Below are positions 10,480 to 49,774 of a stretch of DNA of 51,260 nucleotides, in pieces. The stretch lies in NCBI RefSeq assembly GCF_003265365.1, contig NZ_AUPM01000047.1:1-51260 (forward strand), in the 5' to 3' direction. A program made the translations under genes and the position numbers. Origin of the DNA: Petrotoga sp. 9PW.55.5.1 (GTDB lineage: Bacteria > Thermotogota > Thermotogae > Petrotogales > Petrotogaceae). The notes beneath the pieces were generated by a model, which was not told where the DNA came from, did not search any database, and saw nothing but the letters and a program-made list of their open reading frames with translations. How positions within the stretch are numbered: position 1 is the stretch's first letter; each line of letters begins with the position of its first letter.

Positions 10480-12774
10480 CTAGACTAACGTTGTGGGGGG
10501 ATTGATATAAATTCTTATATCTTTATAATATTTTTTTAGTTTAGATAGAAGAAACTCATTTTCATCTTGCTTACTCTTAATAATAATTTGATATCTATAA
10601 TTACCTCTTAATTTAAAAATAACAGGTGTAGTTGGCCCTAAAATTTCAAAATTTTTATCCTTTGCCTGTTCCTTAAACTCTGAAATAATCTCTTCTGATT
10701 TCATTTTCGCATTATTTTGAGATCTATTATTAACCATAATTAGATATAAATTTAAAAATGGTGGATAACCAAATATTTCTCTCTGCTCCAAATCATTACT
10801 TGCTATCAAATTATAATCATGTACTACTAGAGATTTATAAATTTCATTATCAGGTTCAAATGTTTGAATTATAACCCTTCCTTTTTCTTTTCTACCTGAT
10901 CTTCCAGCAACCTGCATAAGTAGTGATGCAGTATTTTCCTTAGCGTTATAATCAGGAAAATTGATATATCTATCAGCATCAAGTATTACAACGAGATCAA
11001 GATCCTGAATGTCTAAGCCTTTAGTAATCATTTTTGTACCTACGATTATCTTCTTGCCTGGTTCTTTCATAAAATTGAAAGTTTTGTTCAAATCCTGGAA
11101 AGTTTTTATAACTGTTCTATCCACTCTAACAAGAGGTTGAGACGGAAACAATTTGCTTAACTCGTTAATTACCCTTTCAGTACCGTAACCTCTACTTTGT
11201 AATTTAAAACCTCCGCATTTCGGACAAAAATTAGGTAATTCACTTTCTTTTCCACAATAATGACAAATTAAACTTCTATCTTTTTTGTGAAAAGTCATGG
11301 AAACATCACAATTTTCACACTTAAAAATATATCCACAATCGCTACAAACAACGTAATTAGCGTATCCTCTTGTTGGTGTGAAAACGATAACCTTTTTATT
11401 TTTCTTTAGACTTTCACCTATGCTTTGAATTACTTTCTTACTGAAAATCCAATTGAACTTTTCTTCTTTTTTCATATCGACTAAATTAATTTCGGGCATT
11501 TCTGTATAATATCTTTCTTTAATAGTATCAAGGTAAATTGATCCGGCTTTTGCTTTATAAAGATCAACAATTCTTGGAGTTGCCGATGAAAGTATTAATT
11601 GAGTAGCTTCTAATTGTTTACGATACAATGCTACTTCTATTGCATCGTAAATAACATTTTCAACTTGATAATATGACTGATCGTGCTCCTCATCTATGAT
11701 GATCATCTTCAAATTCTTTATTGGCATAAAAATAGCGCTTCTTGTTCCTATTACTACGTCTAGATCTCCATTCACAGCTTTATACCATGTTTGAGCTCTT
11801 TGAGAGCTACTTATTGAAGAATGATAAAATGCAGCTCTGTACCCTGAAAAACTTTTTTTTAATCTATTCATTAGTTCTGAAGTCAAAGATATTTCAGGAA
11901 CTAACAATAGAATTTTACCGCCTTCTTCTAAAATGGGTTTTGCAACTTCAAAAAAAACCTCTGTCTTTCCACTCCCCGTAACTCCGTACAACAAGTGGGG
12001 TTTATCAGGATATTCTTGAATCAATTTGGCAGCTTTTTTTTGTTCTTCAGTTAATGAAATTCTTATTTTAGACTTACTGTTTTCAGTATTTTTAGATAAT
12101 TCTATTATACCCTTTTTCTTCAAAGTATTCAAAACTGATGATCCTTTTTTTAAAATTTCTTTCTCATATAACTCGCTTTCAAAAGTTTCTCCATTAATAG
12201 AAAGAAAATTTACAACTTCTCTTGCAGCCTTCGAGATATTATAATTCCAAATCTCTTTTAAATCTTTATTTAATTTAACAACATTATCAATTTTATCTTT
12301 TATCTCTTTTTTATATGGTTCAATTTCAACTAAATGTGAATCTAAATATTCTCTTAACTGCTTATTTGCTTGAGTATTATTTTTAAACATTTTCAAAAAT
12401 TGCTTGTAGAAAATAGGCTTTTGAAAAGGAACAACGCTATTTTTTGGGATTATTCTTAATTTAAATACATCTGAAGATGCAGGCGGAAAAAACAACTTTG
12501 CAACTTCACCTATTGGAGCCATAAACTTTTTACTCACTTTTTCTAGAAGTTCTATATGGTTTTTGTTTAAATAACTATGGTTATCTAAAACAAATTCTAT
12601 TTCTTTTATTTTATTTACATCTCGGTATCCTGATTCTTCGTATACCAATCCAATAATAAAATTCCCTCGTAAATTTATTATCACTCTTTGGCCTATTTCT
12701 AATTTTTTTTCGTTTTTGTAAGTAAAACCATTGAAAACTAATTGTCCAATAGGTATAACTTCATAGTAAAACAT
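10480..12774 (-). CDS. priA: Primosomal replication-restart helicase PriA
   Basis: 3'-5' DNA helicase that reloads the replisome at stalled forks. At 764 residues it has the full PriA layout: an N-terminal 3'-end binding domain, a DEAD/DEAH motor with Walker A GVTGSGKTEVF near residue 265 and Walker B DEEH, a zinc-binding insertion with paired cysteines (CSDCGYIFKCENCDVSMTF, then CHYCGKESELPNFCPKCGG) between about 477 and 525, and helicase motifs V-VI (GTKMITKGLD, QVAGRSGRKEKG). All key residues are present. It is flanked on the same strand by the amylase gene upstream (15-base gap) and hpf downstream. Confidence 0.97.
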   Translation of the reverse strand: MFYYEVIPIGQLVFNGFTYKNEKKLEIGQRVIINLRGNFIIGLVYEESGYRDVNKIKEIEFVLDNHSYLNKNHIELLEKVSKKFMAPIGEVAKLFFPPASSDVFKLRIIPKNSVVPFQKPIFYKQFLKMFKNNTQANKQLREYLDSHLVEIEPYKKEIKDKIDNVVKLNKDLKEIWNYNISKAAREVVNFLSINGETFESELYEKEILKKGSSVLNTLKKKGIIELSKNTENSKSKIRISLTEEQKKAAKLIQEYPDKPHLLYGVTGSGKTEVFFEVAKPILEEGGKILLLVPEISLTSELMNRLKKSFSGYRAAFYHSSISSSQRAQTWYKAVNGDLDVVIGTRSAIFMPIKNLKMIIIDEEHDQSYYQVENVIYDAIEVALYRKQLEATQLILSSATPRIVDLYKAKAGSIYLDTIKERYYTEMPEINLVDMKKEEKFNWIFSKKVIQSIGESLKKNKKVIVFTPTRGYANYVVCSDCGYIFKCENCDVSMTFHKKDRSLICHYCGKESELPNFCPKCGGFKLQSRGYGTERVINELSKLFPSQPLVRVDRTVIKTFQDLNKTFNFMKEPGKKIIVGTKMITKGLDIQDLDLVVILDADRYINFPDYNAKENTASLLMQVAGRSGRKEKGRVIIQTFEPDNEIYKSLVVHDYNLIASNDLEQREIFGYPPFLNLYLIMVNNRSQNNAKMKSEEIISEFKEQAKDKNFEILGPTTPVIFKLRGNYRYQIIIKSKQDENEFLLSKLKKYYKDIRIYINPPTTLV

Positions 12775-42990: not shown

Positions 42991-43019
42991 TTGACAAAAT
43001 ATAAAAATTATGCTAGAAT
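42991..43019 (+). promoter_or_regulatory. trp operon promoter
   Basis: TTGACA (42991-42996) and TAGAAT (43014-43019) separated by 17 bases: one mismatch from consensus. Transcription would start near 43026, shortly before the leader peptide. No obvious TrpR-like operator overlaps it. Confidence 0.88.
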
Positions 43020-43049
43020 ATAAAAAATTAATAATGGAGTTTGACTGTT

Positions 43050-43130
43050 ATGAAAGATGAATATATGAAAAAAATGGTCTCAAAAAACCCAAATAATATT
43101 AATATAATCAATTGGTGGTGGCATCTCTGA
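43050..43130 (+). CDS. trpL: trp leader peptide, 26 residues with three tandem Trp codons
   Basis: A short reading frame between promoter and attenuator with a GGAG ribosome site at 43036-43039. It begins MKDEYMKKMV and ends NWWWHL; codons 22-24 are TGG TGG TGG (43113-43121), just ahead of the stop, the classic arrangement by which a ribosome stalled for lack of charged tRNA-Trp alters folding of the downstream RNA. Three Trp in 26 residues cannot be chance in so AT-rich a sequence. It lacks homology as a protein, and acts by being translated. Confidence 0.9.
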   Translation: MKDEYMKKMVSKNPNNINIINWWWHL

Positions 43131-43198
43131 CGGGGATGCCTCATAGTTGATGCCATAGTTTTTAAAAGGGCATCCCTGTTAAAGGGGTGCCCTTTTTT
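43120..43198 (+). terminator. trp attenuator with alternative hairpins
   Basis: Four segments can be seen. Segment 1 is GGCATC at 43120-43125, overlapping the Trp codons. Segment 2, GGGGATGCC at 43132-43140, can pair with segment 1. Segment 3, GGGCATCCC at 43168-43176, pairs with segment 2 through 8 bases (antiterminator) or with segment 4, GGGGTGCCC at 43184-43192, as the terminator, followed by six T. Stalling on the Trp codons would mask segment 1 and free segment 2 to pair with 3. Confidence 0.88.
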
Positions 43199-43202
43199 AA
43201 TT

Positions 43203-43252
43203 AGGAGGTCTTTTTCCTTTTAAAAAAGGGACGAAGGCCTCCTTTTTATTTT
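43203..43252 (+). terminator. Second terminator-like hairpin in the trp leader
   Basis: AGGAGGTCTT pairs with AAGGCCTCCT (10 bp, one G-U), with an inner CCTTTT/AAAAGG hairpin, and is followed by TTTTTATTTT. It lies between the attenuator and trpE, so trpE transcription must pass it too. It could back up the attenuator or be a remnant. Confidence 0.75.
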
Positions 43253-43302
43253 AATTTTATAAATGTAAGTAATGAAAATTATTTAAGTGTGAGGAGGTTA
43301 AT

Positions 43303-44802
43303 ATGTATACTCAAAAAAACAATAGTATCCAAACGATTTTACCCATTATAGAAAAAATCAAAGTTAAAGATATCGATCCTGCAAATATATATAAAAAAGT
43401 AGCCTTAGAAAATAAATACTCTTTTCTTTTAGAAAACTTAAAATCGAATGGCAAAAGTTACTCTTTAATTGGCGTTTCACCACAAAAGATTGTGAAATTA
43501 AAGTATATATCAAAAAACAACACTTGTATTGAATATATAGATAATACAAAAGGTTTTTTGAAAATGAATAATAAAGATTATATAGATTTTCTTAAAGAAG
43601 AATTATCGAAAATAAACTACAAAAGTATACATAAGATACCTGATTTTTTTGCAAGTTTTGTTGGATACTTTGGATACGAGATGGTTTCTCTTTGGGAAGA
43701 AGTTTATCACATAGAAAAAACCAAAGATTTGAAACACGGAGATTTACCTTTGTCTTTACTAGTCATGCCAAAAATTTTATTAATAATAGATCAAAACGAA
43801 GATATAGGTTATTTAATAAACGTTATAGATCTTAATTCAGAAATGAACCAAGATGACTCAATCTACTTAGCCAAATTGGAAAATAAAAGGATTATAGAAA
43901 AGATAAAAAATAAAACCCCCAAAATCTGTAAAGATAAAATCTACAATCAGAAAATCAAAATAAAAAATCATACAAAAAAAGAAGATTTCATTAAAAAAGT
44001 AGCGAAAGTCAAAGAATACATAAACACAGGTGAAGCTTTTCAAATAGTTCTATCTCAAAAGTTTTCATGTGAAATGGAAGAAGATCCTTTTGAAGTTTAT
44101 GAAAGTTTAAGAAATATAAACCCCTCACCTTACATGTTTTACCTTAACTTTGATGAAGTAAAGTTAATAGGATCTTCACCTGAAATGCTTGTTAAAGTTG
44201 AAGGACAAAGAGTTATAACAAGACCTTTGGCAGGAACAAGGCCAAGAGGCGAAACTAAAGAGATTGACCAAGTAATAGAACAAGAATTACTAAGTGATGA
44301 AAAGGAAAGAGCTGAACACATTATGCTTGTAGATCTTGCTAGAAACGATCTTGGAAGAGTTTGCGAAAAAGGAACGGTTCATGTGACAAAACTATTTGGA
44401 GTTGAGAGATATTCTCATGTTATGCATATTTATTCCCAAGTTGAAGGAAAAAAGAAAGAAGAGTTATCTTCGCTTGATGTGTTAAAGTCTGTATTTCCTG
44501 CAGGTACAGTATCAGGTGCTCCAAAGATTAGGGCGATGGAGATAATAGATGAATTGGAAGATGAGCCACGAGAAATTTACGCAGGAGTTGTAGGTTATAT
44601 AGATTCAAAGGATGATTTAGATACCAGTATAGCTATAAGAACGATGGTATACAAAGATAAGAAGTTGATAATTCAGGCGGGTGCAGGAATAGTGTCTTAT
44701 TCTGATGCTGAAAAAGAATACTATGAAACAGTAAACAAATCGATGGCAATGTTCAAATCAATTAAAAAGGGGGATTTCAAAGATGATTCTTTTGATAGAT
44801 AA
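43303..44802 (+). CDS. trpE: Anthranilate synthase component I
   Basis: Makes anthranilate from chorismate and ammonia delivered by TrpG. The 499-residue chain is normal length. The chorismate-binding domain is well seen in [35 protein letters not shown], the [12 protein letters not shown] loop, [10 protein letters not shown] and [16 protein letters not shown]. The N-terminal part has LLENLK where many feedback-inhibited enzymes carry LLES; feedback binding cannot be judged from this alone. A GAGGAGG ribosome site precedes the ATG. It overlaps trpG by 20 bases and is the first structural gene behind the attenuator. Confidence 0.96.
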
Positions 44803-45382
44803 CTACGATTCTTTTACATACAACGTTTTCCAAATGGTTAGTGAGTTCGATAACGTGAAAGTGTATAGAAATGACAAAATCGCTGTTGAAGAGATAGAAA
44901 CATTAAACCCTTCACATATAATAATTTCCCCGGGTCCAGGTACTCCAAAAGATGCAGGTATATCTTTGGAATTAATAAAACGTTTCAAAGATAAAATCCC
45001 TATCTTAGGTATATGTTTGGGGCATCAATGTATCGCGGAGGCATTTGGCGGCGAAGTGGTTAGAGCAAAAGAGATTTTTCACGGCAAAACTTCAAAAATT
45101 TACTTAAAAGAAAAAGATGAGTTGTTTAAAGATGTAGGAACTCCTTTTGAAGCAACTAGATACCATTCTTTGATGGTGTCAAAAGAAAATTTTCCTGAAG
45201 AATTAATGATAACAGCTACCACAAAAGATGGAGAAATAATGGGGTTAAAACATATAAATTACAAAATATATGGTGTGCAATTTCATCCAGAATCAATACT
45301 AACAACCGTAGGACATAAGTTAATAGAGAATTTTATAAACATAAAAATAGAAAATAGAGAAAGGAGTGTCAGCTATGTTTAA
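44783..45382 (+). CDS. trpG: Anthranilate synthase component II, glutamine amidotransferase
   Basis: Supplies ammonia from glutamine to TrpE. Class I glutamine amidotransferase of 199 residues: nucleophile Cys78 in GICLGHQCIAEAFGG, the oxyanion PGPGTP, and the catalytic His/Glu in QFHPESIL. The HSLMV segment is the typical PabA/TrpG one, so a shared role in folate synthesis is possible in organisms without a separate pabA; this is inference. It is a free protein and is not fused to TrpD as in enteric bacteria. It overlaps trpE by 20 bases and trpD by 8. Confidence 0.95.
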   Translation: MILLIDNYDSFTYNVFQMVSEFDNVKVYRNDKIAVEEIETLNPSHIIISPGPGTPKDAGISLELIKRFKDKIPILGICLGHQCIAEAFGGEVVRAKEIFHGKTSKIYLKEKDELFKDVGTPFEATRYHSLMVSKENFPEELMITATTKDGEIMGLKHINYKIYGVQFHPESILTTVGHKLIENFINIKIENRERSVSYV

Positions 45383-46412
45383 TTACTATCTTCAAAAGGT
45401 CGTTAAAGGGGAAGACCTTAATTTAAGTGAGACGGAATCTGCAATGGAAATGATAATGGATGGGAAAGTAACCCACAGTCAACTTGCTGGCTTTTTAGTT
45501 GCACTACACATAAAGGGAGAAACAGTTGATGAGATAACAGCTAGTGCAATGGTTATGAGAAAGAAGGCATTGCCTCTGAATCTTGAAAACGACAGTCTCA
45601 TCGACACATGCGGAACAGGTGGAGATGCCAAAGGAACATTCAACATTTCAACGGCAGTAGCTTTCGTATTAGCAGCCGCAAATATTCCTGTTGCTAAACA
45701 CGGTAATAGATCTGTTTCAAGTAAAAGTGGAAGTGCCGATGTATTAGAAGCTTTCGGAATAAATATATCACTTCCTACTTCTTTAATTGAAAAGTGTTTA
45801 AAAGAAATAGGTATTGCATTTCTATTTGCACAAGATTTTCACAGAGCGACAAAACATGCAGCCGTTCCAAGAAAAGAATTAGGTATAAGAACGATATTTA
45901 ATGTATTAGGGCCCCTCACAAACCCTGCAAACGTAAAGTACCAACTGATGGGGATATACGATCCTAACCTTGTTTATCCAATAGCTGAAGTTTTAAAAAA
46001 TTTGGGGGTAAAAAGAGGGATGGTTGTTCATGGAGCTGGAGGAATAGATGAACTCTCACTGTCAGGAAAGAATAAAGTAGCCTTTTTAAAAGATGGAAAG
46101 ATAGAAGAGATAGAGATATCTCCACAAGATCTCGGACTTAAAGTTTCCCCTTTAGAAGAAATTCAAGGAGGAAGTGCACAAGAAAACAAAGATATTATTT
46201 TAAATATATTTGAAAACAAAGAAAAAGGCGCAAAACGGGACATCGTTGTTCTAAATTCAGCTGCTGGTTTGTATGTAGCGAACAAAGTTAACTCTTTAGA
46301 AGAAGGCATCAAATACGCTCAAGAAATTATCGAAAGTAAAAAGGCGTTGAAAAAACTGAATGAGATGATTGAGTTTACAAACCTGTTATCGGTGGAAGAA
46401 AAAAGCTCTTGA
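45375..46412 (+). CDS. trpD: Anthranilate phosphoribosyltransferase
   Basis: Joins anthranilate to phosphoribosyl pyrophosphate. The chain from ATG 45375 has 345 residues; the in-frame GTG at 45366 lies in the AAGGAG ribosome site and is rejected. The PRPP-binding GTGGDAKGTFNISTA motif, KHGNRSVSSKSGSADVLEAFG and the RKELGIRTIFNVLGPLTNPA segment are complete. A 27-base gap with AAAGGAG separates it from trpC. Confidence 0.96.
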   Translation: MFNYYLQKVVKGEDLNLSETESAMEMIMDGKVTHSQLAGFLVALHIKGETVDEITASAMVMRKKALPLNLENDSLIDTCGTGGDAKGTFNISTAVAFVLAAANIPVAKHGNRSVSSKSGSADVLEAFGINISLPTSLIEKCLKEIGIAFLFAQDFHRATKHAAVPRKELGIRTIFNVLGPLTNPANVKYQLMGIYDPNLVYPIAEVLKNLGVKRGMVVHGAGGIDELSLSGKNKVAFLKDGKIEEIEISPQDLGLKVSPLEEIQGGSAQENKDIILNIFENKEKGAKRDIVVLNSAAGLYVANKVNSLEEGIKYAQEIIESKKALKKLNEMIEFTNLLSVEEKSS

Positions 46413-46439
46413 CTATTATAGCTCAGAAAGGAGATCAAA

Positions 46440-47204
46440 ATGTTCTTAGATAAGATAGTGGATAACAAGAAGAAAGAAATTGAAAAAATAAAAAGTAAAA
46501 AAAATTCGCTCAAAAGTTCTCTTGAAAAAGAAGAAATAACCCTAATCGCTGAAATAAAAAAAGCGTCTCCAAGTAAAGGTATAATCTCCAAAGATTTCGA
46601 TCCAGATAGTCAATTAGAAGCATATATAAAAGGAGGGGCTGATGCAGTTTCTATATTAACAGATGAAGAATACTTTCAGGGAAGTACTGAATTACTTCAG
46701 AGGTTGAAGAAAAAAACTACTCTACCCATCCTAAGAAAAGATTTCATAATAGATGCTGTGCAGATTTATCAATCCTTATTCTTAGGAGCCGATGTTATCT
46801 TACTTATAGCTTCAATTCTTTCACAAAAAGAATTAAGAGAATTTTTACACCTTACAGAAGATTTGGGTATGGAAGCACTCGTTGAAGTTCATAATTTAGA
46901 AGATTTAGAAAAAGTTTTAAATACAGATACACAGATTCTAGGGATAAACAACAGAGATCTCACTGATTTCTCTGTTAATATTAAAAATACAGAAAAGATT
47001 TTAGATAAATTGGCGAAAAAAAGTAGAAGAAAAGATTTTTACATAATTTCAGAAAGTGGTATAAAAGAGAAAAAAGATATAGATTATCTAAAGAGTTTAG
47101 GGGTGGATGGGGTTTTAATAGGAGAGGCATTAATGAGAGAAAACAACCCAATTTCAAAGATTAGAGAACTCTTTCCAGAAAAGGAAAAGATCCTAAATGG
47201 TTAG
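46440..47204 (+). CDS. trpC: Indole-3-glycerol phosphate synthase
   Basis: Closes the indole ring from carboxyphenylaminodeoxyribulose phosphate. A TIM-barrel protein of 254 residues: the EIKKASPSKG motif carries the catalytic lysine, ADAVSILTDEEYFQGS, LRKDFIIDAVQIYQS and GINNRDL are the family's conserved strands, and ISESGIKEKKDI and VDGVLIGEALM close the phosphate site. It overlaps trpF by 8 bases; the two are separate proteins, unlike the fused enteric enzyme. Confidence 0.96.
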   Translation: MFLDKIVDNKKKEIEKIKSKKNSLKSSLEKEEITLIAEIKKASPSKGIISKDFDPDSQLEAYIKGGADAVSILTDEEYFQGSTELLQRLKKKTTLPILRKDFIIDAVQIYQSLFLGADVILLIASILSQKELREFLHLTEDLGMEALVEVHNLEDLEKVLNTDTQILGINNRDLTDFSVNIKNTEKILDKLAKKSRRKDFYIISESGIKEKKDIDYLKSLGVDGVLIGEALMRENNPISKIRELFPEKEKILNG

Positions 47205-47817
47205 GGTAAAAGTTTGCGGAATAACAAATAGAGAAGATGCATTAAAAATATCCAAAATGGGTGTTGACGCAATAGGATTTATCCTTTCAAGTAAGAGCCA
47301 GAGAATGGTGAGTTTATCGAAAGTTTCTGAAATTGTCAAAATTCTGCCTCCATTTTTAAGCAGGGTAGCAGTAGTTGTAGATCCTACAATAGAGCAATTA
47401 AATGAAATTGAAAACTCTAAATTCTTCGACTACATACAATTTCATGGATCTGAAAGTATTGATTTAATAAAAAGAAGTAAGTTAAAAACAATAAAAGCTA
47501 TAAAAATTGAAAACGAACAATCTTTAAAGGCTATATCTACATACGAAGAAGATGTAGATTATTTTCTCTTTGATACAAAAGTTGGGGAAAAAGTTGGTGG
47601 GACTGGAAAAACTTTCGATTGGGGGTTTTTAAAGCAGATTAATTTACAAAAGCCATTCATATTAGCAGGTGGAATAGGTCCAAACAATGTGATTGAAGCC
47701 ATAAAAGAAGTAAAACCAGATGCGATAGATTTAAACAGTAAAGTCGAAGAGAAACCTGGTAAAAAAGACATTAAGTTAATTAAGGAAGTTCTTTCAAAGA
47801 TAAAAAGGGAGGAATAG
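47197..47817 (+). CDS. trpF: Phosphoribosylanthranilate isomerase
   Basis: Amadori rearrangement between the TrpD and TrpC steps. A 206-residue TIM-barrel: [13 protein letters not shown] with the catalytic Cys at the start, [28 protein letters not shown] (catalytic Asp), [10 protein letters not shown] and [16 protein letters not shown] at the end. The usual family motif reads GVE-PG at the latter place, here KVEEKPG, a conservative variant. Overlap with trpC suggests coupling. Confidence 0.94.
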
Positions 47818-47822
47818 ATACC

Positions 47823-49001
47823 ATGAAAAAAGGATACTACGGAGAGTATGGTGGACGTTATGTTCCTGAAACATTGATACCAGCATTGGAAGAATTAGAC
47901 GAAGCGTATGAAAAATACTCAAAGGATCCTGAATTTATAAACGAATTCCATGGATTGCTAAAAGACTATTGCGGAAGGCCAAGCCCATTATACTACGCAG
48001 AAAATTTAACCAAGCACTTAAATGGAGCTAAGATCTATCTAAAAAGAGAAGATTTAAATCACACAGGGGCACACAAAATAAACAACGCCTTAGGTCAAGT
48101 GTTACTAGCTAAAAGAATGAACAAAAAAAGGATAATAGCTGAAACGGGTGCTGGACAACACGGCGTTGCAACAGCAACTGCTGCAGCGAGATTCGGTTTA
48201 AAATGCATAGTTTATATGGGAGCAGAAGATGTAAAAAGGCAGGCTCTAAACGTATACAAAATGCAAATGCTGGGGGCAGAAGTGATTCCGGTTTACAGTG
48301 GAAGTCAAACGTTAAAAGAAGCGATAAATGAAGCGATTAGAGACTGGGTCAGTAACGTTGAAAACACTCACTATGTTATAGGTTCAGCTGTTGGGCCTCA
48401 TCCGTACCCAAAGATAGTTAGAAATTTTCAAAGAATAATAGGTGATGAAGCTAAAAAGCAGATAATAGAAAAAGAAGGAAAACTACCAGATTACACAATA
48501 GCATGTGTTGGAGGGGGAAGTAACGCAATAGGCATATTCTATCCATTCATAGAAGACAAAGAAGTAGAATTAATAGGAGTTGAAGCTGCTGGTAAAGGTT
48601 TGGAAACAAAAGAACACGCCGCCACTTTAACTGCTGGAAAAGTCGGTGTTCTCCACGGAAGTAAATCTTATGTTCTTCAAGATGAAGACGGGCAGATACA
48701 ACTGGCGTACTCTATATCTGCAGGATTAGATTATCCAGGTGTTGGACCAGAACACAGTTATTTGCACGATATAAAAAGGGCGAAGTACGAATCAGTTACA
48801 GATGATGAAGCGATAGAGGCTTTTGAATTATTAACAAAATTGGAAGGGATAATTCCTGCTTTTGAAAGTTCCCATGCAATAGCTTATACGATGAAGTTTG
48901 CCCCAACACTTCCAAAAGATAAAATTATTCTAATAAACTTATCGGGTAGGGGAGATAAAGACGTAGACTCCTACAGAAAACTCAAGGGGGTGAAACAATG
49001 A
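47823..49001 (+). CDS. trpB: Tryptophan synthase beta subunit
   Basis: PLP enzyme joining indole and serine. At 392 residues it is a TrpB1-type enzyme that works with TrpA. The PLP lysine is Lys85 in [14 protein letters not shown]; the serine-binding [13 protein letters not shown] and the phosphate loop [10 protein letters not shown] are intact, as is the GVGPEHS loop. A ribosome site GGGAGG lies before the ATG, five bases after trpF. The start overlaps nothing; its stop overlaps the trpA start by four bases. Confidence 0.97.
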
Positions 49002-49774
49002 GCAAAATTTCAGAGGCCTTCAAAAACAAAAAAGCCCTTATAACGTATATATCCGCAGGAGATCCGGATTTAGAAACAACCAAAGAAATAATATTGGAGT
49101 TAGATAGATCTGGTGTTGACATAATGGAAGTAGGGATACCTTTTTCCGATCCTCTAGCAGATGGACCAGTTATTCAAGAAGCAAGTCAAAGAGCTTTAAA
49201 AAATGGAACAAACTTAAAAAAGATACTTCAAACTCTAAAAAACATAAAAGATCGAATAAGTATCCCAATAGTATTAATGGGTTATTACAACTCCATATTA
49301 AATTATGGAATAGACAAATTTATAAAAGATTCTAAAAAATCAAACGTTTCTGGAGTGATAATACCTGATCTTCCTTTTGATGAGGAAGAAGAGTTTTATA
49401 GCAAATTAAAAGAAAACGGAATAGACCCTATACTATTAGTTGCCCCAAATACTTCAGAAGAAAGATTAAAACAGATTTCAAAACATTGTTCTGGATTTCT
49501 CTACTGTGTCTCACTAATGGGCGTAACAGGAGATTCAAAAGGGCCCACAGAACATTTAAAAGAATACTCTCAAAACGTAAGAAAGTATGTTGATATACCT
49601 ATAGCAATAGGATTTGGGATAGATAGCCCAGAAAAAGTTAAAAATCTTATTGACTATTTTGATGGAATAATAGTTGGAAGTGCGTTGATAAAAATAATTG
49701 ATAATAACAAAAATAACAAAAGCAAAATGCTTCAAGAAGTTGGTAATTTCTCAAAAAGTTTAAAAATTTGGTAA
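48998..49774 (+). CDS. trpA: Tryptophan synthase alpha subunit
   Basis: Cleaves indole-3-glycerol phosphate, channeling indole to TrpB. TIM-barrel of 258 residues: the catalytic Glu lies in [21 protein letters not shown] and Asp in [15 protein letters not shown]; the phosphate-binding GVTGDSKG and the [14 protein letters not shown] strand are complete. It ends the seven-gene trp operon, overlapping trpB by four bases, and stops just before a bidirectional terminator. Confidence 0.97.

Follow-up and report, generated by a model that had tools for sequence, protein, structure and literature searches.

A leader-peptide attenuator of the Petrotoga trp operon with a second terminator and a candidate relay between the two

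The window analysed here is a stretch of 51,260 nucleotides from Petrotoga sp. 9PW.55.5.1, the genome of which comprises 2.08 Mb in 79 contigs. It carries a complete trpEGDCFBA operon (43303–49774), in which trpE is followed by the reading frames of trpG, D, C, F, B and A. The identity of the genes was confirmed for trpE, G, D and B, while C, F and A are assigned as reading frames. The features of the leader upstream of trpE are collected in Table 1. Here, T1 denotes terminator 1, the hairpin of segments 3 and 4 (3:4), and T2 denotes terminator 2, located directly 3′ of T1.

Table 1. Features of the trp leader and of the first gene of the operon, in positions of the window
Feature	Positions	Strand	Description	Basis
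Promoter of the trp leader	42991–43019	+	sigma-70 type; TTGACA, 17 nt, TAGAAT	11/12 consensus matches
trpL leader peptide ORF	43050–43130	+	26 codons, ending NWWWHL and stop	translation; WWWHL invariant in nine genomes
Sensor	43113–43121	+	three tandem Trp codons	unchanged in every family leader found
Segment 1	43120–43128	+	GGCATCTCT; partner: segment 2	computed folds
Segment 2	~43132–43141	+	GGGGATGCC; partner: segment 1, or segment 3 (antiterminator 1)	computed folds
Segment 3	43164–43177	+	AAAAGGGCATCCCT; 5′ arm of T1	computed folds
Segment 4 and U-tract	43183–43198	+	AGGGGTGCCCTTTT (43183–43196), 3′ arm of T1, then U-tract	computed folds
Relay arm	43190–43200	+	CCCUUUUUUAA; segment 4 and U-tract, predicted to pair with 43220–43230 if segment 4 is free (antiterminator 2)	folds, shuffles
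Inner hairpin of antiterminator 2	43203–43218	+	AGGAGG/UUUCCU; sequesters the 5′ arm of T2	fold
Relay target	43220–43230	+	UUAAAAAAGGG; top of T2	folds; covaries with segment 4 across genera
T2	43203–43250	+	hairpin 43203–43243 and U-tract, −23 to −25 kcal/mol	folds; conservation
trpE	43303–44802	+	opens the regulated trpEGDCFBA operon	reading frame and family confirmation

The leader begins with a promoter which a sequence-only reading of this DNA had described as near-consensus, and the hexamers and their spacing agree with that description. A TG is present 5′ of the −10 element, and TTGACA and a TATAAT-like hexamer are kept in all nine trpE leaders compared. The same reading had pointed to a 26-codon frame ending in Trp-Trp-Trp-His-Leu, which was confirmed as trpL; WWWHL is its conserved part. 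The peptide is MKDEYMKKMVSKNPNNINIINWWWHL, its ATG lies at 43050 and its TGA at 43128–43130, with a Shine–Dalgarno-like GGAG 10 nt 5′ of the ATG. trpL is a short, translatable and conserved ORF with a start codon, a Shine–Dalgarno sequence and tandem cognate codons. The Trp codons overlap segment 1, where a stalled ribosome would mask it.

The RNA of this region is highly structured, with positions 43110–43255 folding at −67.2 kcal/mol as against −37.7 ± 3.8 kcal/mol for shuffled sequences (z = −7.8). In the 2.08-Mb genome, both strands together contain 27 copies of the motif TGGTGGTGG, so that about 0.002 occurrences are expected per 250-nt leader on one strand. In folds at 37 °C of the RNA that a ribosome halted on the first Trp codon would leave exposed, taken up to segment 3, the 2:3 antiterminator formed in 9/9 leaders (−16 to −19.5 kcal/mol). 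If segment 1 was left available, 9/9 leaders formed 1:2 and 3:4 at the same temperature. The antiterminator 2:3 and the terminator 3:4 with its U-tract are mutually exclusive in all nine, and the earlier claim that the complementary segments complete an attenuation switch is upheld by the 1:2, 2:3 and 3:4 pairings. Once segment 4 has been transcribed, 3:4 is usually more stable than 2:3, which means that antitermination would be kinetic. The same is assumed of classical attenuators. All helices weaken at 60 °C, where 1:2 or 2:3 is no longer the optimum in some leaders. It is very highly probable that a classical leader-peptide trp attenuator lies upstream of trpEGDCFBA.

The search for relatives of trpE covered 103 genomes from the phylum. 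The same leader was found in 5/5 other members of the genus and in three genomes of two sister genera. Across these nine trpE leaders from three genera, WWWHL and the pairing segments are kept, although the N-termini of the peptides have diverged. Loss of either from relatives had been named in advance as a result that would overturn the attenuator. The peptide ends in NWWWHL or TWWWHL, and the stop shifts between CTC TGA, CTC GGA TAG and CTT TAA. To judge from the leaders compared, T2 and its complementarity to segment 4 are conserved along with WWWHL and the 1:2, 2:3 and 3:4 pairings.

A covariance model, built from the nine leaders on a MAFFT alignment and run over the phylum, recovered the known leaders and new ones. 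Homologous WWWHL leaders lie in further genera of the family, upstream of a gene for a TrpX-like transporter (G046), of trpS (G046 and G038) and of trpB (G038, G053 and G054). The TrpX assignments are best matches of 220–252 bits, below the NCBIfam equivalog cut-off of 390. All of these homologous trpX, trpS and trpB leaders carry tandem hairpins. Scans of GTDB contigs with the trpE peptides and a leader DNA pattern gave no match, and near relatives were possibly left out there. The sequence-only reading was right to place an attenuator before trpE, with all its elements present and conserved in relatives. T2 and the likely relay escaped it, as did the spread of the same leader to trpB, trpS and trpX.

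T2 is kept in 9/9 trpE leaders and in the homologous trpX, trpS and trpB leaders. No other terminator-like hairpin within the 51-kb window is as stable as T1 or T2. A U-tract lies 3′ of T2 in nearly all leaders (weak in G053), and T2 is close upstream of the first gene in most of them. The distance is about 330 nt in G035, where the stretch between T2 and trpE (G035:C22, ~11890–12210) resembles one before another gene of that genome (L079, AAACTAAAAGATTGGTAAAACTTAGGTTTTGGAATTTCTAAA) and is perhaps an inserted repeat. The idea that T2 is itself a repeated genomic terminator was rejected, as elsewhere there are only short partial matches and none of these genomes has a further full-length copy. 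An unswitched T2 would close the operon even in starvation, and a mechanism for its opening was therefore sought.

Such a mechanism is suggested by the complementarity between segment 4 and the top of T2. As long as segment 4 is unpaired and the 3′ arm of T2 has yet to be transcribed, the optimal fold in 9/9 trpE leaders is antiterminator 2 (−17 to −19 kcal/mol). The relay pairing gains about −9 to −12 kcal/mol, as against about −1 ± 1.5 kcal/mol for T2 controls in which pairs and loops were shuffled, or about ten times the mean. The corresponding P value is 0.005 or less in each trpE leader and 0.002–0.05 in the trpX, trpS and trpB leaders, and since the leaders are homologous these values are supportive and not independent. 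In all, the predicted relay pairing is present in nine representative leaders of five genera, upstream of four different genes. In the trpE leaders, the equilibrium stability of T2 exceeds that of antiterminator 2 by about 4–7 kcal/mol, so that the relay would have to work through folding kinetics.

The relay helix also varies between genera. The 4:T2 helix is CCUCUUUUUAA/UUAAAAAGAGG in the trpX leader of G046, CCUCUUUUU/AAAAAGAGG in the trpB leader of G038 and CCUUUUUUAU/AUAAAAAAGG in the trpB leader of G053. The compensatory changes include CCC/GGG in the Petrotoga type, CUC/GAG in G046 and G038, CC/GG in G053, and U5/A5 in G035 as against U6/A6. As far as sequence can tell, T2 is altered in step with segment 4 across genera. 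This covariation was judged from per-sequence folds because MAFFT misaligns the T2 of G035. These folds also place a G-U wobble in the T2 stem of G000, G047, G035 and G046a where the relay has G-C. When segment 4 and T2 were swapped between leaders, their own pairs had a diagonal mean of −10.4 kcal/mol versus −7.1 kcal/mol for swapped ones (permutation P 72/200000), although the own pair is not always the best (G038a, G053) and a foreign T2 is sometimes better in single rows. In the trpS leaders, GCCCUU pairs with AAGGGC, which is the 5′ arm of T2 and not its top; the logic is the same and the geometry is different. The computed folds, the shuffles and the covariation all point to two linked switches between alternative pairings, one after the other, both governed by where a single ribosome stands.

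From these features we infer ribosome stalling, a kinetic order of folding and the action of the relay in the cell. When charged tRNA-Trp is plentiful, the ribosome would pass WWW to the stop codon and mask segment 2. This would allow 3:4, and thus T1, to form. A polymerase leaking past T1 would then meet T2, which would be able to form with segment 4 held in 3:4. Under a shortage of Trp-tRNA, the ribosome would stall at WWW and mask segment 1, so that 2:3 forms and T1 cannot. The freed segment 4 and its U-tract would pair with the top of T2, closing over the inner hairpin formed from the 5′ arm of T2. T2 would be delayed as well, and the polymerase would reach trpE. A single stalling event would open two terminators, and the leakages of the repressed state would multiply.

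Other regulators were considered for the same leader. TrpR (PF01371) gave only matches below the family cut-off and none above it in 11 genomes, and TRAP (PF02081) was found in 0/11 above its cut-off; the controls from E. coli and B. subtilis, respectively, were found. No TrpR operator had been visible to the sequence-only reading, which fits the absence of a TrpR or TRAP gene above the family cut-off. An Rfam search of the leader returned no T-box or other family at the gathering score, nor Trp_leader (RF00513) even at E up to 10, and the leader is thus not filed under Trp_leader, T-box or PyrR. A leader RNA recognized by a protein or tRNA in a TRAP-like or T-box-like manner, with the short ORF being incidental, is highly improbable. 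Systems of this kind do control trp genes in Firmicutes, yet beyond the missing TRAP gene and Rfam match, WWW is the most conserved element and stands in frame with a start codon and a Shine–Dalgarno sequence. Nor is T2 likely to serve mainly in stabilizing or processing the 5′ end of the trp mRNA instead of terminating. A stable 5′-proximal hairpin could protect an mRNA, but the U-tract that follows in nearly all leaders and the mostly short distance to the first gene speak for a terminator.

A more serious competitor, which we nonetheless consider the less probable account, is a plain 1:2/2:3/3:4 attenuator followed by an independent, unswitched backup T2 that lowers leakage in fixed proportion. 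The evidence for the classical part holds without a relay, tandem terminators are an ordinary means of tighter termination, and the greater equilibrium stability of T2 over antiterminator 2 suits a backup. Against it, a terminator of −20 to −25 kcal/mol left unswitched would block expression in starvation as well. The loop of T2 is conserved though a terminator loop needs no particular sequence, and its changes track segment 4. The pairing with segment 4 also exceeds that of shuffled T2 hairpins in every leader. On balance, we favor, with moderate confidence, a ribosome-mediated attenuator of trpEGDCFBA with two terminators in relay. That the relay switches both terminators appears somewhat more probable than that it does not.

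Leaders of other types were also found in the phylum. Trp leaders unrelated in sequence lie upstream of trpE in G002, G015 and G056, of a trpB2-type gene in G033, and of trpX-type genes in G018 (two), G057, G059 and G071, the gene in G057 being identified solely by its similarity to that of G059. The leaders of G002 and G015, when folded, have 2:3-type antiterminators and a single terminator, and visual inspection of the leaders from beyond the family showed none with a second hairpin. In G015, the leader MKTFFYIFSIKQLNLKNNGWWYRARC (L044, G015:C46) lies about 180–230 nt before the trpE match, and its ATG lies only about 8 nt past the −10 box, so that the leader mRNA may be leaderless. A reading frame abuts trpE in Thermotoga-type genomes, where there is no leader. 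The hisG and leuA loci were inspected for amino-acid attenuators, and these genes mostly lie close behind other reading frames.

Several further leaders were noted. Three leaders with many Phe, Tyr and Trp residues (FYFYYFWW, YFYFYW and YGFWY) are present upstream of TrpX-like substrate-binding genes (L100, L101 and L109, in G018, G005 and G007), and these may sense aromatic amino acids in general. A WWW leader and a terminator precede a gene fusing a TIGR04076 domain with 4Fe-4S ferredoxin domains (L099, G002:C43:562-). On the minus strand of G011:C72, about 430 nt from the contig end, a short frame ending in NSMMMCGDARDFRAG and a terminator lie before an HcyBio (PF01837) homocysteine-biosynthesis gene (L106), a possible Met/Cys leader-peptide attenuator. 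A short frame with MVKLNNLYINFTNTLNNQPEPKVWPY and a terminator before citrate synthase (L102, G041:C13) may represent a different type of attenuator or have arisen by chance.

These leaders extend leader-peptide attenuation to an entire Trp regulon within a deep-branching thermophilic phylum. This implies that, at high temperature, transcription and translation are coupled tightly enough for control by ribosome stalling. If the tandem relay is real, it would be a simple way to multiply repression while retaining inducibility, and could be reused as a genetic part. The sequence-only reading held that the presence of the switch in this lineage deserves comparison. This stands, subject to the survey of Vitreschak et al. 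2004, which reportedly has Thermotogales among the lineages with candidate attenuators.

The leader-peptide trp attenuator itself is of a known kind. Rfam leaders for His, Trp, Thr and Leu have been reported, with a gammaproteobacterial origin suggested (PMC3766115), and trp attenuators have been predicted in Actinobacteria (PMC1262725). In 2010, leader-peptide systems were said not to have been shown outside Proteobacteria and Actinobacteria before the authors' own example from Firmicutes (PMC2965389). The literature searched contained no system that combines a leader peptide with two U-tract terminators linked by a relay. We think it slightly more probable than not that such a two-terminator relay, in which the freed 3′ arm of T1 and its U-tract act as the antiterminator of T2, has been copied within one family of thermophiles to trpE, trpB, trpS and a TrpX-type gene.

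The closest parallel for the classical part is trpL of E. coli (Rfam RF00513), which likewise has a tandem-Trp peptide, a stop codon between segments 1 and 2, a 2:3 antiterminator and a 3:4 terminator before a trp operon. The Petrotoga leader differs in having three Trp codons instead of two, a second terminator, no TrpR and no Rfam match. The predicted trp attenuators of Actinobacteria (PMC1262725) share peptides with double or triple UGG and complementary segments, and stand before trp operons and trpS. However, they have other sequences, belong to another phylum, and no second terminator is described for them. Two tandem terminators, a predicted antiterminator and inverse CCC/GGG motifs are found in the rimP-leader of Gammaproteobacteria (PMC2965389), which precedes another gene in another phylum and is described with no leader peptide of regulatory codons. 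For the relay, the enterobacterial his attenuator (AB/CD/EF versus BC/DE; PMC10989985) is the nearest model, as its chain of six segments allows one stalled ribosome to shift two pairings. In the his system only EF is a terminator, whereas in Petrotoga both 3:4 and 5:6 have U-tracts, and the second antiterminator would be formed by the 3′ arm of T1 and its U-tract with the top of T2. Our reading is that the relay resembles the his chain, except that each of the two downstream hairpins would be a terminator.
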